A stretch of 31,621 bases of DNA from a virus. Under the pieces are notes generated by a model. That model did not search any database. It was not told the origin of the DNA and was given only the letters and a program-made list of their open reading frames with translations. Below are positions 2,826 to 17,000 of this stretch, one piece after another. The translations under genes and the position numbers were made by a program. The stretch lies in IMG/VR virus record IMGVR_UViG_3300031111_000031, positions 1-31,621 of that record. One strand, given 5' to 3'. Position 1 is the stretch's first letter; each line of letters starts with the position of its first letter.

Positions 2826-3238
2826 GATCTGTCCTTCAAAATTTCAAACGCTTTGAATTTTCGCCGCCAGATACTGACCGTTGCCTCACTGCACTTGATT
2901 TTCTCGGCGATTTCCTTGGTCGGGCGATTCATCGATATAAAAAGACCGAGGATGATTATTACCTTGGCTTCCAGATGACATCCCGATAGAAACGTGCCGG
3001 TCATCGACGTAAATGTGCTACCACACGATGGGCATATTACACGTCGACCATTCAGCAGACGCTGAACATGTTTTTGCGGAGCTTCTATATTACAATATGG
3101 ACAGTGCAGCCCCGATGGATGCAGCTGTGATACTATCCATTCCCGACAAATGCTTTCATCTAAAAAATCAGGCCCAAACGTATGTAGGATATCAAGCGGG
3201 GAAAAATTGTTGATATTTATTTTAGTAAGTTTTTCCAT
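2822..3238 (-). CDS. Zinc-ribbon plus helix-turn-helix DNA-binding protein
   Basis: A 138-aa protein. A CPYC...CPSCG zinc ribbon lies at about residues 46-72, and a C-terminal helix-turn-helix at about 104-127 (PTKEIAEKIKCSEATVSIW). This pairing resembles the N-terminal half of IS1595-type transposases and related phage regulators, but the catalytic domain is absent, so transposase activity is not implied. It is probably a DNA-binding regulator, perhaps of the late genes, since it sits between primase and terminase. The start ATG at 3238-3236 has a good GAGGAG ribosome site, and its 5' end overlaps the primase 3' end by 22 bases. Its stop forms an ATGA overlap with a 31-codon ORF. Confidence 0.75.
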   Translation of the reverse strand: MEKLTKININNFSPLDILHTFGPDFLDESICREWIVSQLHPSGLHCPYCNIEAPQKHVQRLLNGRRVICPSCGSTFTSMTGTFLSGCHLEAKVIIILGLFISMNRPTKEIAEKIKCSEATVSIWRRKFKAFEILKDRS

Positions 3239-4545
3239 ATTATCTTCTCCTCGGGATGTGCCAGGATATAGTCGGTGACCGCCGGGACCTGGAACACCAG
3301 GTGCGCGATCCGCCCACCGACATATTTCCCGTTCCGAACCAGCGCCAACCGGTTCGGTGTGTTGATTATGGTAACGCCGGGATTGTTTTTCAGAAGCTCG
3401 GCCAGTTCGATAACCGCCGGATCGAGTGAGCCTGTAACTGCGTTTTCCGGAGCGGTTTGTTCGACGGAGATCTCCCGCGGCCGGGATTCGCTCTTTTTAT
3501 CCGGCGGACGCTCCACATCATATGTCAGTCCCGGCGGTAGCCCCGCTTTTATCCACTTGTCAAGGTCTATCCCCAACTCGTAGGCTTCTCCGGGATCCTT
3601 CCCGTCCGGGACCGGCCATCGATCATGGTTGTCGAAGTGTTTTTGCCACCATTCTTGAGCATCAACACCAGCCTTATCAAAGTCGAGCGCGTTGAGGATC
3701 TGCACTGATTGACTGAGTCGGGCATACGTCGCGGCATCCGGTTTCCCGTGCGATGTCCCGACAGCTACGGCGCCGGCGAGAGCGTTGCTGCCGGCCACCG
3801 CGATCGCATCAAGTTCAGACTCGACGATGACGACCGCCCGGCGGCCGGGCTCGATGTGCATGGTGTGCGCCGAGGAGCCGGGGATTACATAATATCGGGG
3901 CTCTCCCTCTGGCCGACGGATACGGATTCGACAGACAACGCCGTCAATAAAGGCCGGGATGATCAGGCCCTGGGGGATCCATAACGCGCGGGGACGGCCG
4001 TTTTCTTTTCTTATTTCCGGAAGGCCCCAGGCGCTACGGGCGCGGTAGAGATCCCTGCCTTTTTCTCCGGGGTTCCATCCGAGACGATATTTCTGAACAG
4101 CATTCAAGTCGATTCCCCGACCGGCGAGCCAGGCGAGGGCTTCAAGGTTTGATAAGAGGTGTTCATGAGCCCAGGCGACAAGTTTCTCGGCGTTTGCTTT
4201 CCAGGGATCTTCCGGGAGCTGGTGCTCGGCGGGTGTAAATGTCGGGGCGGCCGCCCTGGGTTGTTTTGGCCCCATGTGCGACGGACGATCGCCGGCGGGC
4301 AGGTGAAGATAATCACAGGCTGCCTGAAAGCTCATTCCTTCAAAGTCCCGCAGAAACTGGATCGCATCACCCTTTTTATCGCATCCACGGCACCAGTACG
4401 ATCCCTGCCCCTGGTTCTGGTCCGGCCAAACGTGAAAGCGGTCACTGCCGCCGCAGCCGGGGCAGGGCCCTTGCCATTCACCGCCCCGTGTATTCGAGAC
4501 CTTCCGGAGCTTCACTTTTTTCTGTGCCAGATCAAAAACGTTCAT
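3217..4545 (-). CDS. Phage primase with CHC2-like zinc finger and TOPRIM domain
   Basis: A 442-aa DNA primase that makes RNA primers for phage replication. The N-terminal zinc-binding domain has Cys28, Cys31, Cys52 and Cys55 (CPGC...CRGC), as in DnaG/P4-type primases. A TOPRIM fold follows: the glutamate motif VIVESELDA is at about 239-247 and the DxD motif ALDFDKAG at about 286-293. The last 80 residues are a separate small domain of unknown role. There is no helicase domain; helicase activity is in the separate SF3 protein across the 467-base non-coding block. Start ATG at 4545-4543 lies about 9 bases after GAGG. Together the two genes look like a split version of the P4 alpha primase-helicase. 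Confidence 0.9.
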   Translation of the reverse strand: MNVFDLAQKKVKLRKVSNTRGGEWQGPCPGCGGSDRFHVWPDQNQGQGSYWCRGCDKKGDAIQFLRDFEGMSFQAACDYLHLPAGDRPSHMGPKQPRAAAPTFTPAEHQLPEDPWKANAEKLVAWAHEHLLSNLEALAWLAGRGIDLNAVQKYRLGWNPGEKGRDLYRARSAWGLPEIRKENGRPRALWIPQGLIIPAFIDGVVCRIRIRRPEGEPRYYVIPGSSAHTMHIEPGRRAVVIVESELDAIAVAGSNALAGAVAVGTSHGKPDAATYARLSQSVQILNALDFDKAGVDAQEWWQKHFDNHDRWPVPDGKDPGEAYELGIDLDKWIKAGLPPGLTYDVERPPDKKSESRPREISVEQTAPENAVTGSLDPAVIELAELLKNNPGVTIINTPNRLALVRNGKYVGGRIAHLVFQVPAVTDYILAHPEEKIIWKNLLK

Positions 4546-10159: not shown

Positions 10160-10483
10160 CTATGAAAAACATAATACGTCCGACGTCGTGTAAACCTTGC
10201 CCGTGACATTGTCCACCAGCCCCTTTGCGGGCTGGCGATGCGATTGGCGCCGGGGCGCCCTTACCTCACCCTCCGGATCAAAAGGAATATCAAGATTTCC
10301 CGCCAGCCAGGCATCCAGCGTCTTCACGTTATACAGCCTGGTTCTCTCGTTGCCCGCGTGAGGCAATGCCCTGGCATGAGCAACGAAAGCGGACCGAGAC
10401 AAACCACAATACGCAGCCGCCTCCTCGATCCTCAACCACGGAGTCCTGACAACCTTCCCATTCTTAAGAGCAACCTCTTTCAT
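10160..10483 (-). CDS. Helix-turn-helix protein, excisionase/MerR-like fold
   Basis: A 107-aa DNA-binding protein. Residues 16-62 form a winged-helix of the excisionase type: WLRIEEAAAYCGLSRSAFVA, then RLYNVKTLDAWL. The basic C-terminal tail (RAPRRQSHRQPAKG) could add DNA contacts. In temperate phages such proteins direct excision with the integrase, or regulate early genes; both fit. Its ATG (10483-10481) overlaps the stop of the CII-like gene in an ATGA junction, so the two are coupled. A long tail past the wing sets it apart from minimal Xis proteins. Confidence 0.75.
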   Translation of the reverse strand: MKEVALKNGKVVRTPWLRIEEAAAYCGLSRSAFVAHARALPHAGNERTRLYNVKTLDAWLAGNLDIPFDPEGEVRAPRRQSHRQPAKGLVDNVTGKVYTTSDVLCFS

Positions 10484-13383: not shown

Positions 13384-14481
13384 ATGCCAGTCTACACAAA
13401 AAAAGGTCTTCACTACTGCGTCTACTATAACAACGCCAAACGGGTATGGGAACCCTTCGGCCGCGGACCAGTCGCGAAAAAAGCCGCCGAAGCCCGGGAC
13501 CTCGAAATTAAGCTGCAAAAAAAAAGAGGCCAGTGGAACAACCCCGGATCCATATCATCCGTCACCTACAGCGAGCTCGCACAGACATACATGGACCACC
13601 GCAAAATCGATCTCAGCGCGAAAACCAGGCATGAGATATTCCAGATGCTCACGAGATACGTGATCTCACCGATCGGCAATAAACCTGTAAACACCATCAC
13701 AATGCGTCACTGGAATAAAATCCAGGACTCCATGATTAAAAACGGTGCCGGCGCGAGAACCATCAATACATACTTCCGCTACCTGAACAAAATATTCAAA
13801 TGGGGCGTCGCAAACGGCTACCTCAAGGAAAACCCCTGGAAAGACCGGGAATCTCTCCGGCAGAAAAAATACACAGTCGACCTGTTTACCGTAGACGAAT
13901 TCCAGCAAGTCCTTGATGCGGCGGCGGAGCACCTCGCCTGGGCAATGGAAGTCGCATACTACACCGGCATGCGCCCTGGGCCCTCCGAACTGTTCGCTCT
14001 GACATGGGACTGTGTCGACTTCAAAAATAATCGAGTCCGGATCTACGCCACAAAAACCGACAGCTACAGATGGCAATATCTTGACCCTGGATTTGTGAGG
14101 CGGATGGAAACCCGATATCGTGAAAGTCGGCAGCGGGGCGAAACCTGCCCGCACGTATGCTCATACCGCAACCAGCCAGTAAAAAGCCTTAAAGTTGCCT
14201 GGAACGCCGCCAAAAAACGAGCCGGCGTAAAAAAACCTATGCGGCTATACGACATTCGTCACTTCTATATCACCCACGCCCTCGCCAACGGAGCCAGCAT
14301 CATGGATCTGGCCGAGAGGGTAGGGCACGTCGACGCCACAATGATCATCAAAGTCTACTCCCACATGGTCGAAGAACTCAAAACCAAACAGGCATTTCAA
14401 GTCCCGAGCCTGCAATTCCAGGATGAAACAGTAGATCAAACAGTAGATATTCAAATAAAAAGGGGTCACGATTTCTCGTAA
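13384..14481 (+). CDS. int: Tyrosine recombinase integrase
   Basis: A 365-aa phage integrase that recombines attP with a host tRNA gene. The N-terminal 50 residues look like an arm-binding domain (MPVYTKKGLHYCVYY). A SAM-like core-binding domain lies at about 60-150. The catalytic domain has Arg197 (TGMRPG), Lys224 in the beta hairpin, Tyr289/Arg292/His293 in YDIRH where the first position is usually His, His315 (RVGH) and nucleophile Tyr325 (KVYSHM). The C-terminal residues ETVDQTVD are encoded by two arm-type repeats. It starts 2 bases after the membrane zinc-ribbon gene and ends 13 bases before the tRNA-Lys half-site. A terminator for opposing transcripts overlaps its last codons. Confidence 0.95.
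   Translation: MPVYTKKGLHYCVYYNNAKRVWEPFGRGPVAKKAAEARDLEIKLQKKRGQWNNPGSISSVTYSELAQTYMDHRKIDLSAKTRHEIFQMLTRYVISPIGNKPVNTITMRHWNKIQDSMIKNGAGARTINTYFRYLNKIFKWGVANGYLKENPWKDRESLRQKKYTVDLFTVDEFQQVLDAAAEHLAWAMEVAYYTGMRPGPSELFALTWDCVDFKNNRVRIYATKTDSYRWQYLDPGFVRRMETRYRESRQRGETCPHVCSYRNQPVKSLKVAWNAAKKRAGVKKPMRLYDIRHFYITHALANGASIMDLAERVGHVDATMIIKVYSHMVEELKTKQAFQVPSLQFQDETVDQTVDIQIKRGHDFS
14426..14448 (+). repeat. Left arm-type repeat pair of attP
   Basis: AAACAGTAGAT occurs at 14426-14436 and 14438-14448, a 12-base period. The pair lies within the 3' end of the integrase gene. The same motif with final C instead of T lies on the other side of the tRNA half-site at identical spacing. Such repeats are typical integrase arm-binding sites. 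Confidence 0.8.
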
Positions 14482-14487
14482 CCCCTT
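14460..14487 (-). terminator. Strong hairpin terminator for leftward transcripts
   Basis: AAGGGGT (14460-14466) pairs with ACCCCTT (14481-14487); after one mismatch, ACGA (14468-14471) pairs with TCGT (14476-14479), loop TTTC. On the minus strand the stem is followed by TTTTT and more T-rich bases. It therefore stops the leftward structural transcript before it reads through the integrase gene. It overlaps the integrase stop codon, and could also slow rightward transcripts. Confidence 0.8.
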
Positions 14488-14494
14488 GATTTAC

Positions 14495-14543
14495 TGGTGG
14501 GCCGTAGGAGATTTGAACTCCTGACCAACTGATTAAAAGTCAG
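14495..14543 (-). other. attP core: 3' half of tRNA-Lys(UUU)
   Basis: On the minus strand 49 bases match the 3' half of a bacterial tRNA-Lys gene: anticodon stem-loop CTGACTTTTAATCAG with UUU anticodon, variable region, T arm (AGGAG stem, TTCAAAT loop), acceptor strand ACGGCCC and encoded ACCA (14505-14495). The 5' half is missing: upstream sequence has no GGGCCGT partner, so no tRNA can be made. A phage that integrates into a tRNA-Lys gene restores the tRNA with such a half. The matching attB should be the 3' half of a host tRNA-Lys. Confidence 0.9.
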
Positions 14544-14629
14544 GGAATATAAAATACGGTAGAGCTAACCAGTTAATATTACTCAGGTGATAATTTCATA
14601 AACGTTTATATTAGCCATGATCCACAATA

Positions 14630-14652
14630 AAACAGTAGACAAAACAGTAGAC
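14630..14652 (+). repeat. Right arm-type repeat pair of attP
   Basis: AAACAGTAGAC occurs at 14630-14640 and 14642-14652, again with a 12-base period and the same orientation as the left pair. It lies about 86 bases from the tRNA-Lys core on the opposite side from the integrase, just beyond the end of the fibre gene. The two pairs bracket the core as P and P' arms would. Confidence 0.8.
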
Positions 14653-14662
14653 GGCTGATGCC

Positions 14663-15896
14663 CCTACACCGCCAGCAGATTCTTTGATTTGAACAGTTTC
14701 TTCTCGCTATCGAACTCAAAGATATCTGACAAAACCCGGAACGGCAGGGTCTTGTCAATCGTTGCCTTCTCGCCCAGCTCCATGACAAAATCCCTTTCCT
14801 GATCGAAGAGGACGATTTCCTCGGCACCTTCCGGGATCCCGCCGCTATGCGCGATCGGCGGGATAAAATCGGCGGGCTTCTCGGTGAATCCCCAGTATCC
14901 CGGAGGCGGGTCGTCGCACGCCCAGAGGCATATAATCTCGCCCTCGGCATTCCGCACGGCGTACACGAATGGCCGGTCGGAGGCGGTTATATAGCGCCAG
15001 CGGATCGCGTAGTTACGGCCGCCGCTGGTAGACTCGTTCGAGAATCCAATCCGCGCGGTCGTGTCGGCCACATTACTGCTGTGTCCGGACAGGAAGAGAT
15101 TCTGAAAGCTGTCGGTTTGGGTATATATATTGGGCGCGAAGCAATGGTCCTGCATGGCCACGCTGACATGGCCCCCTACACCAACCGACCCGCTGGCCCC
15201 GGTGGTATTCGCGACCGTCTTGAGGGCCGTTGTAATCGTTGACGGAACCCGTTCGATCCGGTCGAAATAGACCGTGCCGGCGACATCGGTATCATCGAGC
15301 CCCCCGATCAGCCGTATCTTGCAGTAGCGGGCATTTGCCGGCGGGGTGAACGTGCCTCCTTTCAGCGTCGGGCTGGTCGGGTTGGATGTCGACGAGTACA
15401 GCGCGTAGTCCGAGATATAGACCTGCGCGGCCGTGTAATACCGGATCCGCACTTGGATCTTAATACCCGCCGCGGTCGCCCAGAGCATGAAATACAGCGC
15501 GTACGTCTGGACCTCCCCGATCTCCATATAATCGCTGTCGAGCAGCCCCCCGCCGTTGCCGGCGCCGCCCGGATGCGTAAAATAAACCGCCTGCGCGCCG
15601 CTGAGAGGGCTGGTCGTTTCTATCCCGCCGGATCCGCCGGAATACAGCTCACGGCTCCAGCTATCGGGCACACCGTCGCCGTCCGAGTCGATCTCGAATG
15701 AGCCGTTCGGCGGATCGTGCTGTTTGCCGACAAGCGCGCCGTAGAGGTACTCAAAATTATCCTTGAGCTTGTCCGCGACCGGGCGAGCAAATCTTCCGGC
15801 TTCCATCTCAGCGTCTGTTATATCTCTCCATCCCATATCCTACACCGCCAGCAGATTCTTTGATTTGAACAGTTTCTTCTCGCTATCGAACTCAAA
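14663..15896. repeat. 58-bp perfect direct repeat at fibre gene ends
   Basis: Positions 14663-14720 and 15839-15896 are identical over 58 bases. Both copies encode the last 18 or 19 residues (FEFDSEKKLFKSKNLLAV) and stop codons of the two paralogous fibre-like genes. The repeat is 1,176 bases apart, so recombination between copies could delete or merge one gene. Confidence 0.9.
14664..15836 (-). CDS. Fibre-like tail protein, paralogue 1
   Basis: A 390-aa structural protein, probably at the tail tip and involved in host recognition. Residues 1-40 are an adaptor-like segment, followed by a carbohydrate-binding-module-like region (PPNGSFEIDSDGDGVPDSW at about 42-60) whose DSDGDG looks like a calcium loop. 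The middle is a beta-sandwich, then repeats, then a C-terminal region strongly shared with the next gene (ACDDPPPGYWG and the last 60 residues). It is the last gene of the leftward structural operon, beside attP, a typical place for variable fibre genes. It starts four bases after the paralogue stops. Exact receptor unknown. Confidence 0.65.
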   Translation of the reverse strand: MGWRDITDAEMEAGRFARPVADKLKDNFEYLYGALVGKQHDPPNGSFEIDSDGDGVPDSWSRELYSGGSGGIETTSPLSGAQAVYFTHPGGAGNGGGLLDSDYMEIGEVQTYALYFMLWATAAGIKIQVRIRYYTAAQVYISDYALYSSTSNPTSPTLKGGTFTPPANARYCKIRLIGGLDDTDVAGTVYFDRIERVPSTITTALKTVANTTGASGSVGVGGHVSVAMQDHCFAPNIYTQTDSFQNLFLSGHSSNVADTTARIGFSNESTSGGRNYAIRWRYITASDRPFVYAVRNAEGEIICLWACDDPPPGYWGFTEKPADFIPPIAHSGGIPEGAEEIVLFDQERDFVMELGEKATIDKTLPFRVLSDIFEFDSEKKLFKSKNLLAV

Positions 15897-17000
15897 TGTA
15901 TCTGACAAGACACGGTACGGCAGGGTCTTGTCCTTGTGCGCCTTCTCACCCAGCTCCATGACAAAATCCCGGTTCTGATCAAACAGGACGATCTCCTCGG
16001 CGCCGGCCGGGATCCCGCTCCGGTACCCGATCGGCGGCACAAATCCGGCCGGTTTTTTGGTCAGCCCCCAGTATCCCGGAGGCGGGTCGTCGCATGCCCA
16101 GAGGCAGATGATCTCGCCCTCGCTGTTCCGGACCGCGTACACAAACGGCCGATCAGAGGCGGTCGTGTAGCGCCATCGGACGGCGTAATCGTAGCTGGTT
16201 ATCATCGCGGTGTTGTAAAACCCGATTCGGGCGGTCGTGTCGGCGATTGAGGATGAATGTCCGATCAGCCGCAGCTTCTCATCCTCCGCATAGATATTCG
16301 GCGCGTGGCAATAGTCCTGCATGGCTATGTGCACGTGATCATAGTTTCCGAGCGATCCGCTCGCGCCGGTCGTATCGGCGACCGTTTTGAGGGCATACGA
16401 GATCACTGCCGGCTGGAGCTGCAGGCCGTCGAAATAGGCCGTGCCGCCAGTAGCTTGAGCCGAATGCCCGCCCACCACGCGGATTACCATGTACCGGGCG
16501 TTTGTCGGCGGGGTGAACTGCGAGCAGTACAGCGTCGGGCTGGTCGGGTTTGAGGTGGAACCATACAGAGCCTCGTCGGAAATATAGGCTTTCGCCGCGG
16601 TATAGTACCGGATCACCACCCTGTTATACATACCCGCGGCAGTGGCCCAATGAATATAGTACAGGATCATCGTCATGATCGACGAGCATTCGATATACTC
16701 GCTGTCCGCCCACCCGCCGCCGTTGCCGGCGCCGCCCGGATGCACAAATTTGAGCGCCTGCGCTCCGTGTGCCGGGGACGATGTCTCGATCCCGTGGGAT
16801 CCGCCGTCAAATGTTTCGATCGTCCAGTTGTCCAGAACCCCTTCCGTATCGACCTCGAACGATCCGTTCGGCGGATTGCTCTGGGACCCGCCGATCAGGC
16901 CGTATAAATATTCGCAGTTCCCCTTCGCCTTTTCGAGTACCGGCTCGACCGGTTGTCCCGGCAGGATCTCCGCCGGTGTAATCGCGCTGTATTCGGGCAT
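15840..17000 (-). CDS. Fibre-like tail protein, paralogue 2
   Basis: A 386-aa protein with the same layout as the downstream gene. The N-terminal module PPNGSFEVDTEGVLDNW lacks the DSDGDG calcium-type loop. The middle region shares strand pattern (RYYTAAKAYISDEALYGST) but is more divergent, and the C-terminus is nearly the same (FDSEKKLFKSKNLLAV). The two look like products of a tandem duplication with later divergence in the binding part. SD-like AAGGAG lies upstream of ATG 17000-16998. Probably a tail-tip or fibre protein; substrate unknown. Confidence 0.65.
   Translation of the reverse strand: MPEYSAITPAEILPGQPVEPVLEKAKGNCEYLYGLIGGSQSNPPNGSFEVDTEGVLDNWTIETFDGGSHGIETSSPAHGAQALKFVHPGGAGNGGGWADSEYIECSSIMTMILYYIHWATAAGMYNRVVIRYYTAAKAYISDEALYGSTSNPTSPTLYCSQFTPPTNARYMVIRVVGGHSAQATGGTAYFDGLQLQPAVISYALKTVADTTGASGSLGNYDHVHIAMQDYCHAPNIYAEDEKLRLIGHSSSIADTTARIGFYNTAMITSYDYAVRWRYTTASDRPFVYAVRNSEGEIICLWACDDPPPGYWGLTKKPAGFVPPIGYRSGIPAGAEEIVLFDQNRDFVMELGEKAHKDKTLPYRVLSDTFEFDSEKKLFKSKNLLAV

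Follow-up and report, generated by a model that had tools for sequence, protein, structure and literature searches.

In Tn916, a conjugative transposon with relaxed target choice and no tRNA core, the DR2 arm sites consist of two 11-bp direct repeats per arm, which are read by a three-stranded-sheet N-terminal domain; the site reported here resembles it by description. In the attPs of the mycobacteriophages L5, Giles, CrimD and Pixie, the last of which targets tRNA-Lys, arm-type pairs flank a tRNA or tmRNA core (PMC3203893). The pairs of L5 and Giles stand in direct orientation; the tmRNA core of CrimD lies between two pairs of 11-bp repeats, with a terminator between core and arm (PMC3203893). 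Close mycobacteriophages differ in their arm words together with N-terminal residues of the integrase (PMC3203893).

We analyzed a 31,621-nucleotide stretch of viral DNA (the window), whose genes encode an integrase (Int), a CI-like repressor, a CII-like protein, a terminase, a primase, and head and tail proteins. The phage is tailed and, because CI-like, CII-like and int genes are present, temperate; its attP is uninterrupted, so the sequence is that of the free (excised) form. Positions 14426–14652 very probably constitute this attP, with Int proposed to occupy the arms, IHF or HU to bend the DNA, and a tRNA-Lys gene to serve as the target. The 10-mer AAACAGTAGA occurs at 14426, 14438, 14630 and 14642, always on the plus strand and with a period of 12 in each pair, followed by T in both int-side copies and by C in both far-side copies. 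A repeat search thus delimits arm-type sites 1 and 2 (AAACAGTAGAT; 14426–14436 and 14438–14448) on the int side and sites 3 and 4 (AAACAGTAGAC; 14630–14640 and 14642–14652) on the far side, all on the plus strand and all with counterparts in the attPs of relatives. The initial annotation had described four 11-base copies, in two pairs of one orientation and 12-base period, differing between the sides only in the last base, and this description held in full. The two arms are copies of one 31-nt direct repeat at 84% identity, and the 10-mer occurs seven times in the window at one mismatch or fewer, against 0.82 expected. Scoring any two-pair arrangement (word 9, periods 10–14) in an 800-bp region, we obtained 36/36 for the window; the best of 1000 dinucleotide shuffles scored 32 and none reached 36. 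The four-copy arrangements of four relatives likewise exceeded all shuffles (0/1000 each). Among 2.9 million viral contigs, a lone pair turned up in 21 stretches, and two pairs flanking a core only in a phage with a related integrase.

Scans of viral and genome contigs yielded six relatives with integrases 40–52% identical to that of the window. Four of the six hold complete attPs with two pairs around a core: L003 (word AACAGTAGA, target tRNA-Ala), L002 (TGGTTGA, tRNA-Pro), L023 (TGTAGAT, tRNA-Ala) and L087 (TGTTAGCC, core without an RNA-family match). Every complete attP carries the same word on both arms, and the five phages show four words in all. The L002 core matches, at 48/48 nt, the tRNA-Pro of the deltaproteobacterial metagenome-assembled genome (MAG) that carries L004; the likely hosts are therefore deltaproteobacteria. 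L004 and the remaining relative, L090, are prophage junctions that read int, one arm pair, an IHF-like site, an intact tRNA (tRNA-Pro and tRNA-Ala, respectively) and host DNA; the presence of the int-side pair only is as predicted if integration occurs at such an attP. The far junctions (attR) of L004 and L090 were not found on their contigs, which are short or end early. The L004 prophage integrase is broken, its N-terminal and C-terminal parts lying in different frames (3001–3929). In L087, the complete attP layout (4110–4212) surrounds a core that matched no RNA family above threshold, and its target may not be a tRNA gene. Among distant integrases (24–30% identical), a four-copy search found no full set in host loci, each of which holds one junction only; L050, L051 and L052 have single pairs close to int, and four Firmicutes-like viral loci have full four-copy sets. 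Two of these, L014 and L017 (integrases ~25% identical; apparently Firmicutes phages), have two tandem pairs at and beyond the end of int, with GTGTAC-type and TGCAAAAT-type words and a period of 11–12.

The pairs of the window flank, as had been claimed, a 49-nt tRNA-Lys(TTT) 3′ half that runs from the CCA to the anticodon stem (14495–14543, minus strand). In alignments to host tRNA-Lys genes, the nearest ones, from one deltaproteobacterial class, match the half at 81–85% and have anticodon CTT where the window has TTT. The similarity stops at the anticodon stem (14529–14543), CTGA/TCAG around the 7-bp loop TTAAAAG (14533–14539), and it is within this stem/loop that crossover would fall. The initial annotation had suggested searching for host tRNA-Lys genes with an integrated copy; such a search did not recover the attB of the window, with 0/395 genomes of the phylum containing the tRNA-Lys half at up to three mismatches and 0/389 genomes of the order giving a significant match, and the exact half was not found in viral contigs either. 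From its relatives only, the host of the window phage is likely a deltaproteobacterium. We also considered tRNA-dependent lysogeny, in which a short common core does not rebuild the tRNA and the phage carries a complementing one (PMC10865867), and rejected it: the window has a 49-nt tRNA half, no whole tRNA gene was found in it, and the tRNA at the relatives' junctions is intact.

The int gene (13384–14481, plus strand) is an ORF of 365 aa that matches Pfam PF00589 (E 7e-19) and PF22022 (E 3e-10). An AlphaFold (AF2) model built from 16 homologs (mean pLDDT 81) predicts an N-terminal beta-beta-beta-alpha domain (~1–49) with a three-stranded sheet and a helix, a central domain (63–154) and a catalytic domain (169–328), and its best structural match as a whole by Foldseek is full-length lambda Int (1z1b, E 1.6e-11). 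Modeled in isolation, the N-domain matched no known fold significantly (best E about 0.7); AP2 domains and the arm domain of HPI integrase (3rmp, 3jtz), which were among its top five at E about 1, are not counted as evidence. By these predictions, the site adjoins a tyrosine integrase that combines a catalytic, a central and an N-terminal arm-binding domain, as lambda/L5-type sites do. The tail from residue 346 is predicted to be disordered (pLDDT <50), and residues 346–365 overlap the attP. The last codons of int contain the first pair in four loci (window, L003, L087 and L090); in L002 the int stop codon falls inside the first repeat, and in L023 and L004 the pair follows the stop by ~90 and ~200 bp. 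Because the conserved protein ends near P341-x-L343 and the repeats lie variously inside, across or beyond the int stop, the tail residues TVDQTVD are most simply a translation of the putative binding site, a by-product of the overlap. The proposal that a binding site shaped these residues accordingly stands as far as the overlap goes; the peptide itself is unconserved and predicted to be disordered, and nothing shows that it is important.

Overlapping the last int codons on the minus strand is an intrinsic terminator (14460–14487; 12-bp stem, U-run with a TTTATTT tail, −20.3 kcal/mol, z −6.2), and similar hairpins are present in L003 and L023. In the prophage it would terminate transcription of the rebuilt tRNA, and in the free phage it would stop leftward late transcription. 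Beyond the attP, at 14663–17000, two adjacent minus-strand genes (390 and 386 aa) without a PHROG match are tandem duplicates, with 85% identity between their 3′ ends across 300 bp.

To locate bend sites, we fixed the IHF consensus, WATCAANNNNTTR, in advance and read it on the minus strand. A proximal IHF-like site, TAACCCCTTGATT (14479–14491, minus strand), matches YAANNNNTTGATW exactly and, on the int side, follows the tRNA 3′ end at a distance of 16–17 nt; it has the same place in L003, L023, L004, L087 and L090, being exact in the window, L003, L023 and L090, one mismatch off in L004, and weak (two mismatches) in L002. A distal site, TAACCAGTTAATA (14566–14578, minus strand; one mismatch), stands exactly +71 from the tRNA 3′ end in the window, L002, L003 and L023, and L087 has both sites as well. 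All five complete attPs therefore carry two IHF-like sites in one orientation, in the core-to-arm intervals and at nearly fixed spacing. At their common offset the sites total three mismatches, against a mean of 16 and a minimum of 11 in 1000 shuffles, in a test that treats the five phages as independent; the opposite orientation gave nothing. The concern about kinship is limited because the flanks are otherwise poorly conserved (14–49% identity, versus 46–85% within the distal site). In the AACAGTAGA register, arm 2 lies 39–42 bp from the proximal site, the proximal lies 87–90 bp from the distal site (100 in L002, 12 bp longer there), and the distal site lies 64–66 bp from arm 3; the pair period is 12–13 on the int side and 11–12 on the far side. 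Among ten control host tRNA-Lys genes, an IHF-like site at −17 accompanies only two (L081 and L086), and the one in L081 adjoins an integrase gene. The L086 locus (1551–1640) combines its tRNA-Lys and an exact IHF-like site at −17 with a tandem TCCCCGCT repeat of period 11, possibly a remnant of an integrated element, and has no integrase match.

By consensus and position, then, IHF-like sites appear to separate the core from the arms as in lambda/L5-type attPs; IHF is our assumed identity for the bending protein, and two genes, placed in the HU/IHF family but not narrowed to IHF, are present in a MAG that harbors a relative. It is unlikely, though worth weighing, that these TAAnnnnTTGATW elements are instead sites of another protein, or further integrase or RDF sites, a question that concerns the bend sites and leaves the attP untouched. 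The support for IHF is its consensus, from which the distal copies mostly deviate by one mismatch, and a GAT-type end is common to the elements and some arm words; against this, the consensus was preset, the elements keep their orientation and position on either side of the core, and IHF bend sites separate core and arm sites in lambda (PMC4880445). The IHF reading also bears on a D-arm-like palindrome, GGTTAGCTCTACC, that the initial annotation had placed at 14560–14572 as possibly another contact site. The segment actually spans 14558–14570 as a minus-strand reading and is a poor palindrome, with three outer pairs and an off-center AGCT; it is better explained by the overlapping distal IHF-like site, which replaces it. 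A tRNA model matched 14504–14569 below threshold (21.2 bits, cutoff 29), and a decayed tRNA 5′ half may reach into this region.

To ask which protein reads the arms, we compared words with integrase domains. The window, L003 and L090 have a common word, and their N-domains are 72–78% identical, against 44–49% for the remainder of the integrase; L002 and L004 share another word and have N-domains 82% identical. L087, with an unrelated word, has an N-domain only 30–44% identical to the others and remaining domains that are equally close (42–46%). N-domain identity alone does not fix specificity, because those of the window and L004 are 78% identical and the words differ. Residues 4 and 20 of the integrase are not the same in the different word groups. 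In this small sample, the pattern favors the integrase N-domain as the arm reader, rather than an excisionase. That the repeats are excisionase (RDF) sites is very improbable: RDF sites are typically direct repeats at 10–11 bp, such as the five Apl sites at the 186 att (PMC7498355), and the window phage has a possible RDF, but a single word on both arms, exactly two copies per arm, recurs in five phages, the word tracks the N-terminal domain and not the rest of Int, the window has no other sequence repeated on both arms that could serve as arm sites, and the Xis sites of lambda are grouped in the P arm (PMC4880445). The candidate excisionase is a small HTH_17 protein (10160–10483, minus strand) encoded next to the CII-like gene. 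A chance or coding repeat at the end of int with an unrelated downstream copy, the tRNA half being a leftover, hardly merits belief and is already refuted by the comparative data: single tandem pairs do arise by chance or in coding sequence in ~20 unrelated viral contigs, but pairs on both flanks occur with this integrase family alone, the arms covary at preserved spacing, and the pairs of L023 and L004 lie outside int.

Comparison of these loci demonstrates the layout, the spacing, the covariation of both arms and the tRNA-adjacent prophage junctions. The site in the window is best read as an attP core between paired P and P′ arm sites of a tyrosine integrase, with Int as their proposed ligand, and this reading is supported because both arms covary, layout and spacing are kept while the target tRNA varies, and the prophage junctions hold the predicted half; the complete attP with P and P′ arm-type sites that the initial annotation had proposed thus passed a test across relatives with their own words and targets. 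Beyond this, we infer that Int and IHF bind, where exactly crossover falls, and that tRNA-Lys is the target in the real host. The N-terminal domain of Int would bind two direct 11-bp sites on each arm, and an IHF/HU-type host protein would bend the DNA at the two sites separating arms from core, allowing arm-bound integrase to reach the core. Strand exchange would take place within the anticodon-stem/loop part of the 49-bp tRNA-Lys 3′ half. Integration would then leave an intact tRNA on the int side, its 5′ half from the host and its 3′ half from the phage; this tRNA would be followed by the phage terminator and would adjoin arm sites 1 and 2 and the proximal bend site.

Taken singly, the attP of the window is ordinary phage biology. 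Together, these uncultured, probably deltaproteobacterial phages provide a set of five complete attPs and two prophage junctions in which arm word, N-domain and tRNA target vary at constant spacing, which suits tests of how integrase specificity evolves. We tentatively suggest, with slightly less than even confidence, that arm word and N-domain form one exchangeable module and the tRNA target another, within a rigid, near-symmetric chassis of pair, bend, core, bend and pair; if so, recognition varies freely within a fixed DNA geometry in these phages. To our knowledge, there are few integration vectors for sulfate-reducing and syntrophic bacteria, and an attP/int cassette for such vectors is now delimited.

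The window site is another member of an already known kind, the lambda/L5-type attP. Compared with L5, Giles, CrimD and Pixie, its integrase and host phylum are different, and it has two direct pairs, whereas the pairs of CrimD are mutually inverted and L5 and Pixie have additional sites (PMC3203893). It resembles lambda in its predicted bivalent integrase with an N-terminal arm-binding domain, in its putative IHF bend sites between core and arms, and in the 7-bp overlap to be expected, but lambda has five uneven arm sites and three IHF sites where the window has two near-equidistant pairs and two IHF-like sites (PMC4880445). In the attPs of Oenococcus phages, too, both arms have short direct repeats, located beside the int stop, with a proposed match to the integrase N-terminus, although their repeats are uneven (two and four) and their hosts belong to another group (PMC8074189). 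What the window and its relatives add to this known kind is a nearly fixed geometry of two IHF-like sites, kept despite differing arm words and targets.
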